Of a DNA stretch of 64,000 bases, positions 12,686-47,596 are shown one piece after another. Under the pieces are notes generated by a model. It searched no databases, was not told the origin of the DNA, and was given only the letters and a program-made list of their open reading frames with translations. The position numbers and the translations under genes are program-made. Origin of the DNA: Hyphomicrobium sp. (GTDB lineage Bacteria > Pseudomonadota > Alphaproteobacteria > Rhizobiales > Hyphomicrobiaceae); NCBI GenBank assembly GCA_002928735.1, contig PERL01000004.1, forward strand, positions 62,001-126,000, in the 5' to 3' direction. The first letter of the stretch is position 1. Each line of letters starts with the position of its first letter.

Positions 12686-14305
12686 ATGCCGGGATTGACA
12701 CCACGGGGAGCGACCGCGCGCCGTTGGACTGGCCCGGGCATACTCCTGGGCGCGATCACAGGTTTGATCGCCGCGACGCCGGCCCTAGCTGGCGCTGATA
12801 CACCCCAAGCCCTCACCCTTGACCAGAGCATCAACGAAACGGTCGGCACCCTGTCCGCCCCCTTCGTCGCCTTTATCTTCTCGCCGCTACCCGGCACGGC
12901 TTTTCCCTGGATCGTCCTCTGGCTGATCGCCGCCGCGGTTGTCTTCACCGTCTACTTCGGCCTCATCCAGATCCGCGGCTTCGGCCACGCGCTCGCCCTC
13001 GTCAGTGGCAAATACGATAACGCCAAGGACCCCGGTGAGGTCAGTCACTTCCAAGCCCTCTCCACTGCACTCTCCGGAACCGTCGGTCTCGGCAATATCG
13101 CTGGCGTCGCCGTGGCCGTCTCCGTCGGCGGCCCGGGCGCCACGTTCTGGATGATCCTCGCCGGCCTTCTTGGCATGGCGACCAAGTTCACCGAGTGCAC
13201 GCTCGGCGTCAAATACCGCAACGAGTTCGCCGATGGACACGTCTCCGGCGGCCCCATGTACTATCTCTCGAAAGGCCTCGCCGCACGCGGCCTCGCCGTC
13301 CCCGGCCGCATCATGGCCGCCATCTTTGCGGTCTTCTGCGTTCTGGGGTCCTTCGGCGCCGGCAATATGTTCCAGGCCAATCAGGTCCACGCCCAACTCG
13401 TCAACGTCACCGGCGGCGATGCCAGCTTCCTCGCCGGACAGGGTTGGCTGACGGGATTGGTCCTCGCCGTGATCGTGTTCGCCGTCATCGTCGGCGGCAT
13501 CAAGTCGATCGCCACGTTCGCCGAATTCATCGTGCCCATCATGGCCCTCATCTACTGCGGCGCGGCTCTCATCATTATTGGGATGAATATCGAAAAGCTG
13601 CCGTGGGCCGTCGGCCAGATCGTTTCGGGAGCCTTCACGGGAGCCGGGGTCGCCGGCGGCATGCTCGGCGCCATCATCCAAGGCTTCCGCCGCGCGTCGT
13701 TTTCAAACGAAGCCGGCCTCGGATCAGCCGCCATCGCCCACTCCGCTGTCAAGACGAAGCACCCCGTCACCGAAGGCCTGGTCGCCCTCCTGGAACCCTT
13801 CATCGACACCGTCGTCATCTGCACCTGCACCGCCCTCGTCATCGTCATGACCGGCGTCCTTCAAATCGATCCCGCGACCGGGCTCTACATCTGGAACGCC
13901 GAAGCCGGCCGTATCGCGACACAAGGCAACCTCACGGGCGTCGAATTGACCTCCGCTGCCTTCGAAAGTTCGATTTCCTGGTTTCCATACGTGTTGGCAC
14001 TAGCCGTCGTACTCTTCGCCTTCTCGACGCTGATCTCGTGGTCCTACTACGGCCTGAAAGCCTGGACCTATCTGTTCGGCGAAGGCCGCGCGCGCGAAAT
14101 CACCTTCAACACCATCTACTGCGGCATGGTCGTGGTCGGCGCCGCGATCAACCTGAACCACGTCATCGATTTCGCCGACGCCGCCATTTTCTCCATGGCG
14201 CTCGTCAACATCACCGGGCTCTACATCCTGATGCCGGAAGTGAAAAAGGACCTTGCCGACTACTTCGCCAAATTAAAAAGCGGTGAGATCAAACCCGCAG
14301 CGTGA
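12686..14305 (+). CDS. Sodium:alanine symporter family (AGCS) transporter
   Basis: Inner-membrane transporter of the AGCS family, importing alanine or glycine with sodium. The family signature is clear: LSGTVGLGNIAGVAVAVSVG, GPGATFWMILAGLLGM and the FSNEAGLGSAAIAHS segment. From the ATG at 12686, preceded by a G-rich stretch, it has 539 residues with around eleven membrane segments. A long N-terminal hydrophobic extension before the core looks like a cleaved leader, a feature of some proteobacterial members. It diverges from the binding-protein gene, hinting at shared control of amino-acid uptake. Confidence 0.93.
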   Translation: MPGLTPRGATARRWTGPGILLGAITGLIAATPALAGADTPQALTLDQSINETVGTLSAPFVAFIFSPLPGTAFPWIVLWLIAAAVVFTVYFGLIQIRGFGHALALVSGKYDNAKDPGEVSHFQALSTALSGTVGLGNIAGVAVAVSVGGPGATFWMILAGLLGMATKFTECTLGVKYRNEFADGHVSGGPMYYLSKGLAARGLAVPGRIMAAIFAVFCVLGSFGAGNMFQANQVHAQLVNVTGGDASFLAGQGWLTGLVLAVIVFAVIVGGIKSIATFAEFIVPIMALIYCGAALIIIGMNIEKLPWAVGQIVSGAFTGAGVAGGMLGAIIQGFRRASFSNEAGLGSAAIAHSAVKTKHPVTEGLVALLEPFIDTVVICTCTALVIVMTGVLQIDPATGLYIWNAEAGRIATQGNLTGVELTSAAFESSISWFPYVLALAVVLFAFSTLISWSYYGLKAWTYLFGEGRAREITFNTIYCGMVVVGAAINLNHVIDFADAAIFSMALVNITGLYILMPEVKKDLADYFAKLKSGEIKPAA

Positions 14306-14321: not shown

Positions 14322-17012
14322 TCAAGCGGCCTTGGCATTGGCCAGATTGAGGGTCGCCAAACGCACGCCCGCATCCTCCGGGTCGTCGCTGATGGCAAAC
14401 CCAAGCCGCGCGCAAAAATCGAGCATGGTCTGGTTCTCGGCCAGCACCGTGCCCGATAGTTCGCTGAGGCCCTCCGCCCGAGCGTAAGCGATCAGATGCT
14501 GCATCAAGCGCTTGCCGAGCCCCTTGCCCTTCAAGTGCGACGCCACGAGAACCGCAAACTCGGCCTTCTGGTAGTCCGATCCGGCCATCATCCGCGCAAC
14601 GCCCAACAGCGTTCCTGTCGCCTTCTCGATGGCCACGAACGCCATCTCGCGCCCATAGTCGATCTGCGTCAGCCGCGCGATGGTCGCGTGGTTGAGTGAC
14701 TTCGCCGCCATGAAAAAGCGCATCCGCATGTCATGCGGCGTCACCTGCTTGAAGAAATCGTCGTAACGCAATTCGTCGTCGGGCCGGATCGGACGGATCA
14801 GCAACTCCTGGTTTCCGCCCAGCAGAAAATCGGTCTCCCACCGCGACGGATACGGCCGAATGCTCATGGGCACCCGCGGATTGAGAACGGGATCGGCGAT
14901 GACGATGCGCGCGTCGAGCGCCACCACATCGTGGTCGTCGGCCAGCAATGGATTGATATCGATCTCCCGAATTTCGGGATGCTCGGCGACAAGATAGCTG
15001 AGGCGCACGAGAACCATGGCAATCCGGTCGAGGTCGGCAGCTGGCCGGTCCCGATAGCCGGCCAGCAGCCGCGACACCCGCGTCTGCGCCATCAGATCGT
15101 GCGCCAAACCGAGATCGAGCGGCGGCAACGCCTCCGCCGTATCCCGCATCACTTCCACGCCCGTCCCGCCGGCACCAAACACGATCAGCGGCCCAAATGT
15201 CTGGTCGGTGCTAACGCCTGCAAACAGCTCGTGCGCATCCTTCTTGCGGATCATCGGCTGCACGGTGAAGCCCTCGATGACCGCATCAGGCTTGAGCCGC
15301 TTGATCCGGCTCAGCATCGCCTCCGCAGCGTCCGCGCAATCCTCAGGTGTGGTGAGATCGAGCCGTACGCCCCCGACATCTGATTTATGCGTGATGTCGG
15401 GCGAGCGGATTTTCAACGCAACGGCCTTGCTGGAGGCCAGCAACTCGGTGGCAACCGCCCGCGCCTCTTCCGGCGTCGCTGCCGTCCGCGTCGGCACCGT
15501 CTTGATGCCATAAGCCGCCAGAACATCCTTCGACGGGGCTTCCCCCAGAACCGTCTCCCCGCGCTTCAGTGCGTCCTTCAGCGCCCGGTTCACGTATTGG
15601 GGATCAAGCCCCATCTCGTCCGGCAGTGACGGCGGCGTCCGCATCAAAAGATCCTGCGCCCGCCGGTGCCGAACCAATTGCATGAAACCGTTGATCGCAT
15701 CGTCGGGGCTCTCGAACGACGGATGCCCCGCCGCACGAAACGCCGCTCGCCCCGGTTCAGCCGTGCCGTTTCCAAGCCACACGCTGAGGAGTGGCCGCCG
15801 CCGCCCATCCGGCTTGTGCGCCCTCACCGCCTCAATGACGGCCTCAGCCGCCTTCGTGCTGTCTGCCAAAGCCGTCGGGCAATTCATAACGAGGATAGCA
15901 TCCGTCCCCTTGTCGTTCAGAACGGCCTCAACCGCCGCCGTGTATCGCTCCGGTGAGGCATCCCCAATGATGTCGACTGGATTTGCATGCGACCACGTCG
16001 GCGGTAGCGCGGCGTTGAGTGCAGCGATCGTCGGCGCATCGAGAGTCGCCAGCGAGCCGCCCCAATCCGACAGCCGGTCCACGGCCAAAACGCCGGCCCC
16101 CCCGCCGTTGGTGATGATCGTCAACCGTTCGCCGCTGATGCGCCCCACCCGCGACAGCGTTTCGGCCGCATCGAACAACTGTTCGATCTCGCGCACGCGC
16201 AACACGCCGGCGCGCCGGAACGCCGCCTCATATGCCTTGTCCGAGCCTGCCAACGCGCCCGTGTGCGACAGGGCCGCCTTAGCACCCGCAGAATGCCGCC
16301 CCGACTTAATGACGATCACAGGCTTCGCGCGCGCCGCTCGCCGCGCCGCCGACATAAACTTCGGCGCATTCGTAATGTTCTCGATATAGAGAAGAATGGC
16401 CCGGCTCGAGGTGTCCGCCGCCAGATAATCAAGCAGGTCCCCGAAATCGACATCCAGCATATCGCCCAGTGACACCACGTGGCTGAACCCGATGCCGCGC
16501 GAAGCAGCCCAGTCGACGATGCTCGTCACCAGCGCACCCGACTGAGACAAAAACGCGAGATCGCCTTTCAACGGCGCGATGTGAGAAAAACTGGCATCCA
16601 ATCCGATTTGCGGCAGCATCAGGCCAAGGCAATTGGGACCCTGCACCCGCAGGCACGTCGGCCGCGCCGCCTTCAGAACAGCTGCCTTTTGGTCGGCGCT
16701 GAGCCCCGCCGTGATCACCACCGCCGCCCGCACACCCTTGGCGCCCAGCTCAGCAATGATGCTGGGCACCGTATCGGGCGGCGTCGCAATGACCGCCAGA
16801 TCCGGCACACCCTCCAACTCGCGCACCGATGTGACGCAAGCCTGTTCCTCGACATGGCGATGCTTCGGATTGACGAACTGAATCCGCCCAGTGAACCCAG
16901 CGCGCAGAAGATTGCGCGCGACCACGTTCCCCACCGAATTCGGTGTCGGGCTGGCCCCGATCAGCGCCACGGACCGCGGCGTCAAAAGAGAGTCGAGATT
17001 TCGCGTTGTCAT
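14322..17012 (-). CDS. Pat/YfiQ-type protein lysine acetyltransferase (acyl-CoA synthetase-like plus GNAT)
   Basis: An 896-residue fusion. A CoA-binding Rossmann domain opens it (SVALIGASPTPNSVGNVV), followed by a succinyl-CoA ligase-like domain (ALSHTGALAGSDKAYEAAF), an ATP-grasp domain (about residues 480-700, VALKIRSPDITHKSDVGGV) and a C-terminal GNAT domain with the acetyl-CoA loop KGKGLGKRLMQHL. This layout matches Pat/YfiQ, which acetylates acetyl-CoA synthetase and other proteins. The start overlaps the stop of the upstream kinase gene (ATGA), and both follow an FNR-type regulator on the same strand. Acetate-CoA ligase activity is a less likely alternative. Confidence 0.9.
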   Translation of the reverse strand: MTTRNLDSLLTPRSVALIGASPTPNSVGNVVARNLLRAGFTGRIQFVNPKHRHVEEQACVTSVRELEGVPDLAVIATPPDTVPSIIAELGAKGVRAAVVITAGLSADQKAAVLKAARPTCLRVQGPNCLGLMLPQIGLDASFSHIAPLKGDLAFLSQSGALVTSIVDWAASRGIGFSHVVSLGDMLDVDFGDLLDYLAADTSSRAILLYIENITNAPKFMSAARRAARAKPVIVIKSGRHSAGAKAALSHTGALAGSDKAYEAAFRRAGVLRVREIEQLFDAAETLSRVGRISGERLTIITNGGGAGVLAVDRLSDWGGSLATLDAPTIAALNAALPPTWSHANPVDIIGDASPERYTAAVEAVLNDKGTDAILVMNCPTALADSTKAAEAVIEAVRAHKPDGRRRPLLSVWLGNGTAEPGRAAFRAAGHPSFESPDDAINGFMQLVRHRRAQDLLMRTPPSLPDEMGLDPQYVNRALKDALKRGETVLGEAPSKDVLAAYGIKTVPTRTAATPEEARAVATELLASSKAVALKIRSPDITHKSDVGGVRLDLTTPEDCADAAEAMLSRIKRLKPDAVIEGFTVQPMIRKKDAHELFAGVSTDQTFGPLIVFGAGGTGVEVMRDTAEALPPLDLGLAHDLMAQTRVSRLLAGYRDRPAADLDRIAMVLVRLSYLVAEHPEIREIDINPLLADDHDVVALDARIVIADPVLNPRVPMSIRPYPSRWETDFLLGGNQELLIRPIRPDDELRYDDFFKQVTPHDMRMRFFMAAKSLNHATIARLTQIDYGREMAFVAIEKATGTLLGVARMMAGSDYQKAEFAVLVASHLKGKGLGKRLMQHLIAYARAEGLSELSGTVLAENQTMLDFCARLGFAISDDPEDAGVRLATLNLANAKAA

Positions 17013-18562
17013 GGTGGGCCGGTGCTCGCATGCAAATGTGACATTGCCGTGCAGAGCGTTTCCTCAGGAGTCCCGCTGGCGTCGAGTCGCGTCCATTCGA
17101 GCTCCCCCAGATCGTAGGACATTTGCCGTTCGACAACCTGCGGCGTGGCGTCCGAGGCATCATTTTTGCGTGCACCAACCCGTTGCAGCAACACGTGACG
17201 CGGCGCTTCGAGCCAGAATGCCACGAACCGCGCACCCGCGCGCTGGGCCAGCGCCGCCATTTCGGCGCGTTCGGACGGATGGGCATGAACCGCATCGGCA
17301 ACCACCGAATGACCCGCGCGCAATGCCGCTTCGCTCTTCGCCAGGAGGCGTGCATAGACACGCACCGTCACGTCCGCGCCATAAGCAGCGTCCGGCAACC
17401 GCTCCAAGTCCCCGGCACCAAACAGCGCCTTGCGTTCCAGATCGCTGCGCACATGCACCGCACCGGGTGCGCGCCCGAGCATCGGCGCCAACGCGGCGGC
17501 CAACGTCGACTTGCCCGATCCCGACAATCCCGCCGTGACAACGAGATGAGGCCGTCCCTCATCCAGATACGACAAAGCCCGCTTGAGATAGGCCCGCGCC
17601 TCCGCCAGCCCCTCATCCGTTGACGCGGCCCGTTGGGCGCCCACCATGGCCCGGATCGCCGCGCGCAGCGCCAGAAACACCGGCAACGCGGCAAGCCCCT
17701 CCAGATCGGTGTCGTCTTGCCGCCGCCAGATGTAACGGTTGAAAACCGCATTCGCCGCTGCCCGGTGTCCGCGGTGATCGAGATCCATCAGCAGGAATGC
17801 CAGATCGTAGAGTACATCGACCGTCGCCAACGCCTCATCGAATTCCAGAGCATCGAACAGCATCGGAGCCCCGCCGATGAAAACGACATTGCCCAGATGC
17901 AAGTCGCCATGGCACCGCCGCACGGACCCAGCCCGCGCGCGCTGTTTGAACAGAGGAGCAAGCGTTGATAGGCGCAGCGATAGGGCATCGGTGAGGCCCA
18001 GCACATCGCCGTCAGTACCGCCGAAAAATCCCGGCAATGCCGCCAAAACATCGTGAGCAATGGACGCGATCGCCGCCCGCTCCGGCGGTTCAACAACAAC
18101 CTGAGCGGCGCCATGCGAGGCAACGACGGCATCCGCCAGCGCCTTGGCCTCATCCCCCGTAAGAGCCGTCTGTACCACGCGGTTGACGAGCACATCCTCT
18201 TCCGCGAAGCGGGCCATATGAACGGCCCATTCGACAGGCTCTCCCGCGCCGTTGAGCGCCAATCGCCCATCGGCTTCACGCGTGATCGCCACCAGACCTT
18301 TGTACACGGCCGGCGCATGCGGCGCATTGATCTCCACCTCGCGCGCACACGCGGCCCGCCGTTTCGCGAGTGAGGAAAAATCCATGTACGGATAGCGCAC
18401 CGCGCGTTTGATCTTGTAGACGTCGTGCGCGCCGATGAAGACGTGCGCGCCATGCGTATCGATCCGGTGCACAGCCTCCGCTTGCCGCCCTTCCCAACCG
18501 GCACACGCCAGAAACGCGACCACGTCGCGCTGACAATCGCTGATGTCGGAATCCTCGTTCAC
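17009..18562 (-). CDS. Bifunctional protein: aminoglycoside-phosphotransferase-like domain fused to P-loop kinase
   Basis: About 517 residues from a GTG at 18562 preceded by TGGAAG. The N-terminal half is phosphotransferase-like with the catalytic loop RCHGDLHLGNVV and a DALEFDEAL metal-binding segment; the C-terminal half is an AAA-type kinase with Walker A TAGLSGSGKST and a VVADAVHAH region. Two-domain proteins of this COG2187-COG0645 type are often found near stress and acetyl-transfer genes; substrate is unknown. It lies 86 bases after fnr and overlaps pat by four bases. The open frame continues to 18796 inside fnr, which I reject as a start. Confidence 0.82.
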   Translation of the reverse strand: MNEDSDISDCQRDVVAFLACAGWEGRQAEAVHRIDTHGAHVFIGAHDVYKIKRAVRYPYMDFSSLAKRRAACAREVEINAPHAPAVYKGLVAITREADGRLALNGAGEPVEWAVHMARFAEEDVLVNRVVQTALTGDEAKALADAVVASHGAAQVVVEPPERAAIASIAHDVLAALPGFFGGTDGDVLGLTDALSLRLSTLAPLFKQRARAGSVRRCHGDLHLGNVVFIGGAPMLFDALEFDEALATVDVLYDLAFLLMDLDHRGHRAAANAVFNRYIWRRQDDTDLEGLAALPVFLALRAAIRAMVGAQRAASTDEGLAEARAYLKRALSYLDEGRPHLVVTAGLSGSGKSTLAAALAPMLGRAPGAVHVRSDLERKALFGAGDLERLPDAAYGADVTVRVYARLLAKSEAALRAGHSVVADAVHAHPSERAEMAALAQRAGARFVAFWLEAPRHVLLQRVGARKNDASDATPQVVERQMSYDLGELEWTRLDASGTPEETLCTAMSHLHASTGPP

Positions 18563-18648
18563 GTTGGCTTCCAGGGTCTTGCGGACAACACTCGCAGCCT
18601 GCGCGCACAAAAAGGCCGCCGTCAACCGCGCAACAACCCGCCCATTCC

Positions 18649-19371
18649 TTAAGCGTGAACCAGACCTTGCGCCCGTTGCGCGAGCGCTGCCATATCGGCC
18701 ACCTTCAAACCCCGGCGCCGGCCGGTTGTGATGATGCCTTCCGCCTTCAGCGCTGCAAATTGGCGGCTGACAGTTTCGAGCCGCAGCCCCAGACACTCGG
18801 CGATTTCCGTTCGCGATAACGGAAGATTGAATTCCAGTCCCGCGGCGTCTTGCCCAGCATCACGCGCCTTACCGCTGAACTTGCCGGCAATCAGCATGAG
18901 CAGGCTCGCCACCCGCTCTTCCGCCGTCTTGCGCGCGATCATCGACATCCACTGCCGCGCGGAGTCGAGATCATCCAGCGTCCGCTTGAAAATCGTCCGC
19001 TCCAGATCCGCATGCGTCTGCATGAGGCTTTCAAATGCGCTGCCGGAAAACGCGCACACTTCAAGATCGGTCGCCGCTTCCGCCACGAGTGGGGCGCCCT
19101 CAACGAATGGCCGGCCCACAAACTCCGATGGGAACTGCAACCCGACGATCTGGTTGCTTCCATCCGGCTGCACATTGACGAGTTTCACCACGCCCTCGAC
19201 GATAATTGAGAACGTCTTCGCCCTGTTCGTTCCGCCGTAGAGAACCTGTCCGGCCGGGATCCGGCGGCGATGTACGATCCGCGCAAGCTCATCGGCGGTC
19301 GCCGCCGTGAGCGCGCTGCACGGCGCGTTAGTTCGCACCGAACAATGCTGGCATCTGATACGAAGCGTCAC
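18649..19371 (-). CDS. FNR-type oxygen-sensing transcription regulator
   Basis: A 240-residue Crp/Fnr-family protein. From a GTG at 19371 (AGGTGG upstream) it carries cysteines 7, 10 and 18 (RCQHCSVRTNAPC) and 106 (EVCAFSG), the pattern that holds a 4Fe-4S cluster in FNR and FnrL. A cNMP-like sensor domain and long helix follow, then a helix-turn-helix with ETVSR in the recognition helix, predicted to read TTGAT half-sites. The open frame reaches a TTG at 19479, but that would place coding over a perfect FNR box, so I prefer the GTG. It heads a unit with the kinase and pat. Confidence 0.9.
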   Translation of the reverse strand: MTLRIRCQHCSVRTNAPCSALTAATADELARIVHRRRIPAGQVLYGGTNRAKTFSIIVEGVVKLVNVQPDGSNQIVGLQFPSEFVGRPFVEGAPLVAEAATDLEVCAFSGSAFESLMQTHADLERTIFKRTLDDLDSARQWMSMIARKTAEERVASLLMLIAGKFSGKARDAGQDAAGLEFNLPLSRTEIAECLGLRLETVSRQFAALKAEGIITTGRRRGLKVADMAALAQRAQGLVHA

Positions 19372-19456
19372 GGCCCACCTCGGCGCGATTGCAACCGGCA
19401 CTGGACAATCCGGCCCCGGGTGCAAACCTGTGTACGCCCCACTGCGCCGGTGCGAA

Positions 19457-20671: not shown

Positions 20672-21505
20672 ATGTCAGACCTCCCCACCCAACTCATCAC
20701 CTACGCCCCGATGATCGCAGCCCTCGCCGTGGCCGGCATGGCGGCGGGATTTCTTTCTGGGCTATTCGGCATCGGCGGCGGGTCGGTCCTGGTTCCCGTT
20801 CTCTATGCGGCCATGGGCGCCGCCGGCGTATCGGAAGACGTCCGCATGCAGGTCACGCTCGGCACGTCGTTCGCGGTCATCGGTCCCACGGGGCTGCGGT
20901 CCTTCCTCGCCCAGCGCGCGCGCAATGCCGTCGACATGTCGGCCCTCCAACGTCTTGCGCCAGCCGTGCTTCTCGGCGTGATCGTGGGTGTGGCACTCGC
21001 CAGCGTCTCCTCCAGCGAAACACTGCGCTGGGTCTGGGTGGTCGCCGCTATTGTGATGAGCCTCAAACTCGCACTCGGCCGCGACGATTGGCGCCTCGGC
21101 GGCGCATTGCCATCGACACGCGCGCTCGAAGCCGCAGCCTTCGCCATCGGCGTCCTCTCCGCCTTGATGAGCATCGGCGGCGGCCTGTTCATGGTCTCGC
21201 TGCTGATGCTGTTTGGCTATCCGGTGCTAGCGGCCGTGGCGACCTCATCAGGCTTCGGCCCGCTCATCGCCGTCACGGGCGGTCTTGGCTACATTTGGGC
21301 GGGCTGGGGCGCCACTGGCCTGCCGCCAGGATCATTGGGCTACGTCAATATCCCCGCAGCCCTCGTGATGTTGCCGACGAGTCTCGCCTTCGCACCCTTA
21401 GGCGTTCGCGCCGCGCATGGCCTACCCAAACGCGCACTGGAATTGGCGTTCGCAGCCTTTCTGGCGCTTGTGGCCATCAAGTTCTTGTGGAGCCTCTACG
21501 GCTGA
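20672..21505 (+). CDS. TauE/SafE-family membrane permease
   Basis: A 277-residue polytopic membrane protein with two repeats of the DUF81/TauE fold: the first has GFLSGLFGIGGGSVLVPVL, the second SALMSIGGGLFMVSLLMLFG. Members export sulfite, sulfoacetate or other small anions; the substrate here cannot be told. It follows dusA closely and probably shares its transcript. Its 3' end overlaps the convergent DUF599 gene by ten bases. Confidence 0.9.
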   Translation: MSDLPTQLITYAPMIAALAVAGMAAGFLSGLFGIGGGSVLVPVLYAAMGAAGVSEDVRMQVTLGTSFAVIGPTGLRSFLAQRARNAVDMSALQRLAPAVLLGVIVGVALASVSSSETLRWVWVVAAIVMSLKLALGRDDWRLGGALPSTRALEAAAFAIGVLSALMSIGGGLFMVSLLMLFGYPVLAAVATSSGFGPLIAVTGGLGYIWAGWGATGLPPGSLGYVNIPAALVMLPTSLAFAPLGVRAAHGLPKRALELAFAAFLALVAIKFLWSLYG

Positions 21506-22227
21506 GCATCCGGACCCTTGAGAATGGCCCGCGACTGCGAAAAGAAGTCGCGACGCGTGAGGATGAGCACCACCCACGATGCCGCGACGATAAACGCCAC
21601 CGGATGGAAGAACCACATCAGACCGGCGATCGTGTAGTAAAACGACCGCAGCCCCAAGTTCGAATGCCAGCCGACGAGCCCGAGCAACTCCGCCGTCCGC
21701 TCTGCATGGCTGCGCCGCGCCGCGCCATCGGGATGATCGTGCGGTGGCGTCGCCCCCATCATCATCACCGTGTAGTGCGACAGCCGGAACGCCCAAGCGA
21801 ATTTGAAGAACGCATAGATCATGATCATCATCAGAAAGATGACCTTGATCTCCCACAGCGTCGCCGTTGAGGCCGCCGCGTACGGTAGGGATTCCACAAT
21901 CTCGCGCGCTTTCTCCCCGTACGACAACAGCGCCGCCAGACCGCCGATCACGATCACAGTGGTAGAAGCGAAAAACGCGTTCGCGTTCACCAGCCAGCCG
22001 AGCAACTGACCATCGACGATGCGGCTATCCCGCTCTGCCATTTCCATCATCCACCCGCGCCGGTGGGTCTGGACATAATAGGCGATCGACTTGGCGTAGA
22101 TGCTGGGCCGCGTCGCGATGAACTCGTAGGCCGCGATGATCCCCACGAACCAGCAGACGGCAGCCAAGTCGAGAATGGAAATCTGATCGAAAATCAAGGG
22201 AGCAACCTGAAGGCTGGAGGGAGGCAT
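21496..22227 (-). CDS. DUF599 family membrane protein
   Basis: A 243-residue protein with four or five hydrophobic segments and the DUF599 hallmarks: a first transmembrane segment (LAAVCWFVGIIAAYEF), then the RRGWMMEMAERDSRIVDGQL cytosolic motif, NANAFFASTTVIVIGGLAAL, and FKFAWAFRLSHYTVMMMGA. The histidine-containing LVGWHSNLGLRSFYYTIAG near the end is also typical. The function of the family is unknown. It converges on the TauE-type permease gene. Confidence 0.88.
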   Translation of the reverse strand: MPPSSLQVAPLIFDQISILDLAAVCWFVGIIAAYEFIATRPSIYAKSIAYYVQTHRRGWMMEMAERDSRIVDGQLLGWLVNANAFFASTTVIVIGGLAALLSYGEKAREIVESLPYAAASTATLWEIKVIFLMMIMIYAFFKFAWAFRLSHYTVMMMGATPPHDHPDGAARRSHAERTAELLGLVGWHSNLGLRSFYYTIAGLMWFFHPVAFIVAASWVVLILTRRDFFSQSRAILKGPDAQP

Positions 22228-46360: not shown

Positions 46361-47596
46361 TCAGGATTGATCCTGAGCAGTTGAGAACGGAAGAAGAACA
46401 CTAGCGTTCGCCATAGCCACGATGCCTTCCCGGCGGCCGATACTGCCCAATTCTTCCATCGTGGTGGCCTTCACGCCCACCCTGTCCGCCGTAATCCCCA
46501 GGATTTCAGCCACGCGGGCCTGCATCGCGGCACGGTACGGCCCAATCCGCGGCGCCTCCGCCAATAGCGTCACATCCACGTTCACGATCCGCCCGCCACG
46601 CGCGCGGACCCGCCGCGCGGCTTCAGTCAAGAACAGGTGCGAGGCAGCCCCCTTCCACTTGGGATCAGACGGCGGAAAGTGCTGCCCGATATCGCCATCG
46701 CCGATCGTGCCCAAGAGTGCATCTGTCAACGCATGCAGCGCGACATCCGCATCCGAATGCCCCTCCAGCTTATGCGTATGCGGGATCTCCACACCACACA
46801 GCCACACGCTCGATCCTTCGGCGAAGCGATGCACGTCAAAACCGGTCCCGATTCTGGGTTCCATCGTCATCGCTGCCTCGCATGCCGCCTGCGCGTCCGC
46901 CACATCTGCTGCCGTCGTGATCTTGATATTGCGCGCATCGCCCTCGACCAGAGCGACTGGAAAACCGGCCCATTCTCCAATCGCCGCATCGTCCGTGAAG
47001 TCGTCAAAACCTTCCACCGCCGCCGCCCGGTGCGCATCCAGGATCCGCGCGAAGCGGAACCCTTGCGGCGTCTGCGCCCGCCAGAGACCGGCCCGATCGA
47101 CGGTTTCCGCGATGGTCTGTCCCGCGTCGGCCCGCTTCAGTGTATCAGCCACCGCCAGAGCCGGGATGGCGCCCGGGTGCCGTTCAAGGGCGGCGACCAC
47201 TCGATCGATCAGTCCACGATCCACAAACGGGCGTGCCGCGTCGTGGATGAGGACCAGATCGGGCTCCTCGGCCGCCAAGGCTTCGAGCCCCGCCCGCACC
47301 GAAGCCTGCCGCGACGACCCACCCGTCACGGGGGCCCGCAAAGCGGCCGGACGGCGGCTCAGACTGTCCTCATAAAGCGACCCGTCATCCGCATGGATGA
47401 CTGATTGAACAAGAGCCACAGCCGGGTGCAACGCAAAGGCATCGATCGCCCGCTGCAAAATGGTCTCCCCACCGATGCGGACGTACTGCTTGGGCACACC
47501 CCCACCAACCCGGCTGCCGCGTCCGGCGGCGACGATAAGGGCGGCGACACGCACCTGCGGGCTCTCCTTGACCAAAATCAGACCTCGCGGATGCAT
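46361..47596 (-). CDS. ispDF: Bifunctional IspD/IspF (MEP cytidylyltransferase / MECDP synthase)
   Basis: A 411-residue fusion carrying two non-consecutive steps of the MEP isoprenoid pathway. Residues 1 to about 245 are IspD with the CTP loop ALIVAAGRGSRVGGGVPKQ and the VLIHDAARPFVD segment; residues about 250-411 are IspF with GTGFDVHRFAEG, LEGHSDADVALHALTDALLG and a QHFPPSDPKWKG loop. Fused IspDF is common in alphaproteobacteria. The ATG at 47596 is used; a later start is possible because residues 1-15 are not conserved. It diverges from dusB. Confidence 0.96.
   Translation of the reverse strand: MHPRGLILVKESPQVRVAALIVAAGRGSRVGGGVPKQYVRIGGETILQRAIDAFALHPAVALVQSVIHADDGSLYEDSLSRRPAALRAPVTGGSSRQASVRAGLEALAAEEPDLVLIHDAARPFVDRGLIDRVVAALERHPGAIPALAVADTLKRADAGQTIAETVDRAGLWRAQTPQGFRFARILDAHRAAAVEGFDDFTDDAAIGEWAGFPVALVEGDARNIKITTAADVADAQAACEAAMTMEPRIGTGFDVHRFAEGSSVWLCGVEIPHTHKLEGHSDADVALHALTDALLGTIGDGDIGQHFPPSDPKWKGAASHLFLTEAARRVRARGGRIVNVDVTLLAEAPRIGPYRAAMQARVAEILGITADRVGVKATTMEELGSIGRREGIVAMANASVLLPFSTAQDQS

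Follow-up and report, generated by a model that had tools for sequence, protein, structure and literature searches.

What could join an oxygen sensor, a kinase, and a protein acetyltransferase on one strand of a bacterial chromosome? In bacteria, lysine acetylation is most often linked to the carbon state, through cAMP-CRP or acetyl-CoA. The question of whether it can also be tied to oxygen is raised by a 64-kb window of Hyphomicrobium DNA (the whole stretch that was analyzed, from a 3.34-Mb genome most closely related, among named ones, to Hyphomicrobium MAGs), where genes for an FNR-type regulator, a two-domain kinase, and a Pat-type acetyltransferase follow one another (Table 1). The initial annotation had placed these three minus-strand ORFs, with their 86-nt gap and ATGA overlap, exactly to the base, and Pfam and NCBIfam models support each of the gene names it chose. 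It had also viewed the regulator as a separately encoded counterpart of the cyclic nucleotide domain fused to mycobacterial Pat, a claim that fared differently.

Table 1. Features of the fnr-kinase-pat locus, with positions in the window unless given as residues
Feature	Position	Strand	Details	Basis
pat	14322-17012	minus	896 aa	ORF list, domain libraries
Pat, NDP-forming acyl-CoA synthetase-like region	residues 1-710
Pat, GNAT region	residues about 735-890
ATGA overlap	17009-17012	minus	kinase stop and pat start	sequence
two-domain kinase	17009-18562	minus	517 aa, GTG start	ORF list, domain libraries
kinase, N-terminal APH/maltokinase-like domain	residues about 16-335
kinase, C-terminal gluconokinase-like P-loop domain	residues about 336-517
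fnr-kinase spacer	18563-18648	minus	86 nt	without conserved terminator or promoter
fnr	18649-19371	minus	240 aa, GTG start	ORF list, domain libraries
putative -10 element TACACA	19429-19434	minus	~29 nt downstream of box center
FNR box TTGATTTCCATCAA	19457-19470	minus	center 92 nt upstream of fnr start codon

Gene order and the FNR box at the head of the unit

The three genes are bordered upstream by a divergent dus gene (19655, plus strand) and downstream by a convergent Na:alanine symporter gene ending at 14305. The same fnr-kinase-pat order is found in all six genus genomes (the source genome and five relatives). Among the relatives, kinase and pat are adjacent in 5/5 and fnr is present in 5/5, once truncated by a contig end inside fnr, and the unit has the same flanking genes in all five as far as the contigs reach. 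Given this conservation across the genus, the synteny is not due to chance. A DUF599 membrane protein gene (window 21496-22227, minus strand) is conserved along with the neighborhood throughout the genus.

Junctions within the unit are tight. The kinase/pat junction in the genus falls 0 to 12 nt past the last aligned kinase residue, the kinase reading frame stays open further 5' of its annotated GTG start, and little of the short fnr-kinase spacer is conserved. A terminator or promoter in that spacer, which the initial annotation recognized would separate fnr from its neighbors, did not emerge. A scan of 13.5-20.5 kb, spacer included, returned no sigma-70-like promoter, using a consensus that fits Alphaproteobacteria poorly. 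The only terminator candidate was a weak, nonconserved 5-pair stem that folded no better than shuffled sequences, and the T-run behind it occurs only in the source genome and its closest relative. From the borders, the short spacer without a conserved terminator or promoter, and the ATGA overlap, we infer that fnr, kinase, and pat form one transcription unit.

At its head lies a perfect FNR box, the sole match with 0 or 1 mismatches in the window, a count that is weak by itself because chance alone would give 1.1 such matches in 64 kb. In the 5/5 genus genomes compared, 13 of the 14 box bases are invariant while the flanks diverge, so that no other invariant block in the diverging fnr promoter is as long as the box, and genome-wide there are 9 perfect boxes compared to 0 for the reversed pattern. 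Downstream of the box, TACACA is a poor match to the -10 consensus; its TA (19434-19433) is invariant and its spacing to the box is ungapped in the five genomes, consistent with a putative -10 element placed as in class II FNR promoters. Such class II spacing would point to activation rather than repression by FNR. Elsewhere in the genome, two perfect FNR boxes lie 73 nt apart (L075; G000:C9 around 46940-47026), flanked by an OmpW-like gene and a further regulator gene of the Crp/Fnr family.

A second FNR and its proposed low-oxygen operon

The fnr product contains cNMP_binding and HTH_Crp_2 domains (Pfam), and its best NCBIfam model is FnrL (191 bits, below the model cut-off of 300). All four cluster cysteines are present, C7, C10, and C18 (C7-x2-C10-x7-C18) together with C106, and they are kept in every genus ortholog with a complete sequence. 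The recognition helix reads E-T-V-S-R (LETVSR), which fits the E-x-x-S-R pattern for TTGAT-N4-ATCAA. Cysteines and helix bear out the FNR identity first assigned to the gene and predict a transcription factor that binds a [4Fe-4S] cluster and whose DNA binding is oxygen labile.

The protein shares its four cysteines, the E-x-x-S-R motif, and a TTGAT-N4-ATCAA box upstream of its own gene with FNR/FnrL of Alphaproteobacteria, but it is a second FNR, in its own clade, that heads a kinase-pat operon. A canonical FnrL with 42% identity to it is encoded at C14:6097, and both paralogs occur in all six genus genomes. In the tree, the operon FNR forms a clade apart from the genome's FnrL (support 100/99), adjoining a homolog from another genome (G018) that itself has a box upstream.

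We consider it likely that fnr-kinase-pat is a low-oxygen operon under its own FNR, linking oxygen to the kinase and Pat transcriptionally. This reading builds on the gene order, the conserved box, intact FNR, kinase, and GNAT motifs, the presence of Acs and CobB, and low-oxygen kinase neighborhoods in relatives; to these it adds, as predictions, co-transcription, FNR binding, the sign of regulation, and substrates for Pat and the kinase. As oxygen falls, FNR would retain its Fe-S cluster, bind the single box upstream of its own start, and activate the operon in a positive loop, and the genome's FnrL may act through the same box. Kinase and Pat would thereby be produced in low oxygen, where protein acetylation would probably be switched up. 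Pat would acetylate lysines of metabolic enzymes, Acs first, with CobB reversing the modification, and acetylated Acs would halt acetate activation when respiration cannot pay its cost. The two-headed kinase, acting on small molecules that are most likely sugars, would serve the same low-oxygen or dormancy state. Feedback of Pat onto FNR by acetylation is also conceivable, since activation is reportedly impaired when Rhodobacter sphaeroides FnrL is acetylated (Wei 2017, cited in PMC6640162).

The separately encoded sensor of the initial annotation could, by contrast, be taken as a detached regulatory domain, with FNR acting directly on the acetyltransferase as the cAMP domain does in mycobacteria. 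What the two systems share is the cNMP-binding fold, for which the mycobacterial Pat model hits FNR at 19 bits, a generic fold score, and related GNAT domains (35 bits). In mycobacterial cAMP-Pat (Rv0998/MSMEG_5458), however, the cNMP domain is fused within a protein that has no acyl-CoA synthetase region, whereas in Hyphomicrobium the genes are separate. FNR with its own HTH falls outside the fused cNMP-GNAT system and is a whole DNA-binding activator that has its own site, Pat is of type I and already has its own 700-residue regulatory region, and relatives carry kinase-pat without any linked FNR. Direct action of FNR on Pat is thus highly improbable, and the split form of the mycobacterial system falls away. 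The broader proposal, that oxygen status is linked to acetylation, holds up as plausible by way of transcription, given the FNR identity, the box at the head of the unit, and boxes that recur in relatives at the kinase and at stand-alone pat genes. A conserved FNR site heading a pat operon would be a direct oxygen-acetylation link. E. coli patZ, in comparison, is reported under cAMP-CRP (Castano-Cerezo 2011, cited in PMC6640162), while the Hyphomicrobium control region has an FNR box.

Active sites of the kinase and of Pat

Domain libraries match the kinase to AAA_33 (97 bits) and APH (20.9 bits, just under cut-off). K50, E75, H218-D220-N225, and D237, along with G345xSGxGK351, D374, D423, R461, and R465, are invariant in an alignment of 56 kinase sequences, and the catalytic residues are likewise invariant in a second alignment of 117; judging by these residues, both active sites are intact. 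Because a PDB sequence search with the kinase gave nothing significant, its fold was predicted with AlphaFold2 (pLDDT 93, pTM 0.93). The best VIA-align matches of the model were maltokinase 4o7o (Z 18.1), gluconate kinase 1ko1 (Z 18.1), and glucosamine kinase 6hwj (Z 17.7). The N-terminal domain aligned with mycobacterial maltokinase and glucosamine kinase at Z 17-18 across 255-291 residues, a likeness that does not imply a substrate, and the C-terminal domain matched gluconate, APS, and related kinases. An aminoglycoside-resistance reading of the APH label was rejected: Foldseek ranks APH enzymes high, but full-length VIA-align prefers maltokinase and glucosamine kinase. While structural ranks do not fix the substrate, our best guess is a sugar-type small molecule.

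The kinase is present in over half of 299 phylum genomes sampled, partial matches counted. M. tuberculosis Rv2004c, described as highly similar to COG2187 and with a gluconate-kinase-like part (PMC1950094), is reported in the DosR hypoxia regulon (PMC5483032, PMC1950094). Its two-domain likeness to the Hyphomicrobium kinase is a lead drawn from the description of Rv2004c, and the COG2187 plus COG0645 label for our kinase is provisional. DosR is the sensor for Rv2004c, whereas in Hyphomicrobium and relatives the boxes are of the FNR/FixK type. This widespread enzyme would thereby be placed in a low-oxygen setting in Proteobacteria, beside its reported DosR-regulon membership in M. tuberculosis.

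Pat combines CoA_binding_2, Succ_CoA_lig, and ATP-grasp_5 domains with GNAT (Pfam/NCBIfam), and its alignment to the E. coli Pat structures 9it0/9isq covers the full length (E about 1e-190). It has the domain order of E. coli PatZ/YfiQ, Salmonella Pat, and R. palustris Pat, and its homology to this type extends from one end to the other. In the GNAT region, both E818, which we take to be the catalytic glutamate after Salmonella Pat, and the LKGKGLG loop (LKGKGLGKRLM) are conserved. Likeness to type I Pat systems extends to the rest of the Hyphomicrobium genome, which encodes an AMP-forming Acs with the acetylation motif PKTRSGK as well as CobB. On these motifs and homologies, Acs is the likely substrate of Pat and CobB the likely eraser.

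The synthetase half is another matter. Reviews describe the synthetase region of type I and II Pats as without activity, the catalytic His being absent (PMC8556138). Loss of the phospho-His, as reported for characterized type I members, is not what we found in Hyphomicrobium Pat, where His250 (SHTG) and His542 (HKSDVGG) are both present and conserved. By alignment they correspond to H256 and H535 of Nmar_0206, phospho-histidines of ADP-forming acyl-CoA synthetases (PMC11494057). The first position is His in 23/23 aligned Pat sequences (SHTG in 22, THSG in one), and SHTG or THTG occurs in nearly all further Pats from relatives in the order. E. coli PatZ (9it0), in contrast, has a deletion at the His250 position and no His there, so that Hyphomicrobium Pat keeps a swinging-loop histidine, phosphorylated in ADP-forming synthetases, that PatZ lacks. 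Because both histidines are retained, we file the protein under Pat architecture and not as a proven PatZ-like mechanism. No report of a type I Pat with catalytic His or of a link between FNR and Pat was found in the open papers searched. The parts are known; new are the way they are arranged, the operon's own FNR, and the histidines kept in the synthetase half. These histidines question the general view of that half as dead in type I Pats.

One possibility raised by these residues, which we hold tentatively and rate below an even chance, is that Pat is truly bifunctional. Residues 1-710 would be an active ADP-forming acyl-CoA synthetase (acyl-CoA + ADP + Pi -> acid + CoA + ATP, or the reverse), while the C terminus would acetylate and silence Acs; in low oxygen such a protein could draw ATP from acetyl-CoA with costly acetate reactivation blocked. 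The NCBI name of the Sinorhizobium fredii homolog, 'bifunctional acetate--CoA ligase family protein/GNAT', agrees with such a role, but the support consists of motifs, and the retained residues could instead serve acetyl-CoA sensing. NCBIfam equivalog models for acyl-CoA synthetases of known substrate all score below cut-off with Pat. Nor is the ADP-forming route required: the idea that missing ackA and pta would force it was dropped, as ackA and pta-like genes are both present in the genome. In one run (L203:6423-12210; G000:C1:52422-58209), ackA, pta-like, fabI-like, and DUF3141 protein genes are headed by an FNR-like box with 1 mismatch (L203:11583), and a stand-alone Pat-like GNAT gene adjoins them. 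This run is a possible second oxygen-acetyl link in the genome.

Kinase, pat, and FNR boxes beyond the genus

The synteny survey suggested by the initial annotation gave a divided answer, with the gene order kept in the genus and fnr not linked to kinase-pat outside it. Kinase and pat are themselves separate in most relatives beyond the genus. These two facts favor a reading in which the genes are neighbors without functional coupling, an ordinary FNR next to a kinase and a pat that loosely share a low-oxygen regulon. We regard that as unlikely, not only because all six genus genomes keep the order but because the kinase-pat tandem recurs in several further genera without linked fnr, the two genes are clustered in S. 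fredii, and box enrichment is common to both even when they are unlinked. In one such genome (G030), kinase and pat lie apart with one box upstream of each.

Enrichment at the kinase was seen in three overlapping sets drawn partly from the same genomes, all using windows of 300 nt upstream that ignore operon structure. FNR-type boxes precede the kinase at 11/33 loci from relatives without linked fnr, against 0.9 expected; 74 named kinase loci hold 19 boxes, against 2.0 expected; and 25/99 nonredundant kinase windows have a box compared to 72/903 other-gene windows (Fisher p 1.3e-6), a background taken from the same loci and itself rich in boxes (8%). Permuted box patterns gave 0-1 in this last comparison. 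Pat promoters away from the kinase had a box in 4/19 examined. Pat is among the kinase neighbors in 16/38 loci, and other neighbors, named by sequence recognition, include Usp, Hsp20, CcoN, and Crp/Fnr genes. On plasmid pSF45436d of S. fredii (L226:8863-19350), the kinase, two Usp genes, and pat are clustered within 10 kb; boxes of the FNR/FixK type precede the kinase by 135 nt and pat by 56 nt. The coupling is not universal, since neither a box nor a nearby pat accompanies the kinase in many distant alphaproteobacteria (most Rhodobacterales, Ancylobacter, Sneathiella).

Actinobacterial kinase homologs, plasmid-borne ones among them, have Usp, Hsp20, acsA, and PDH genes as neighbors, or a GAF-sensor/response-regulator pair, surroundings that recall the DosR regulon. 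A more speculative proposal, which we rate as doubtful, is that the alphaproteobacterial Pat linked to the kinase and controlled by FNR is both an ATP-forming synthetase and an acetyltransferase and that a kinase-acetyltransferase hypoxia module has been reused across phyla. If so, low oxygen would lead cells to cash in acetyl-CoA for ATP while ATP-costly Acs is shut off, and the module would answer to FNR/FixK in Proteobacteria and possibly to DosRS-like systems in Actinobacteria. Among the actinobacterial plasmid lineages examined (DK17 group, BH4, and Streptomyces), an adjacent GNAT was found in the DK17 group only, so the actinobacterial kinase-GNAT pairing is a lead and not a rule. On a plasmid of Rhodococcus sp. 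DK180 (L228:7378-9455), 15 nt separate a GNAT gene from the kinase homolog downstream of it, with acsA nearby, and the GNAT product has 31% identity to the GNAT domain of Hyphomicrobium Pat.
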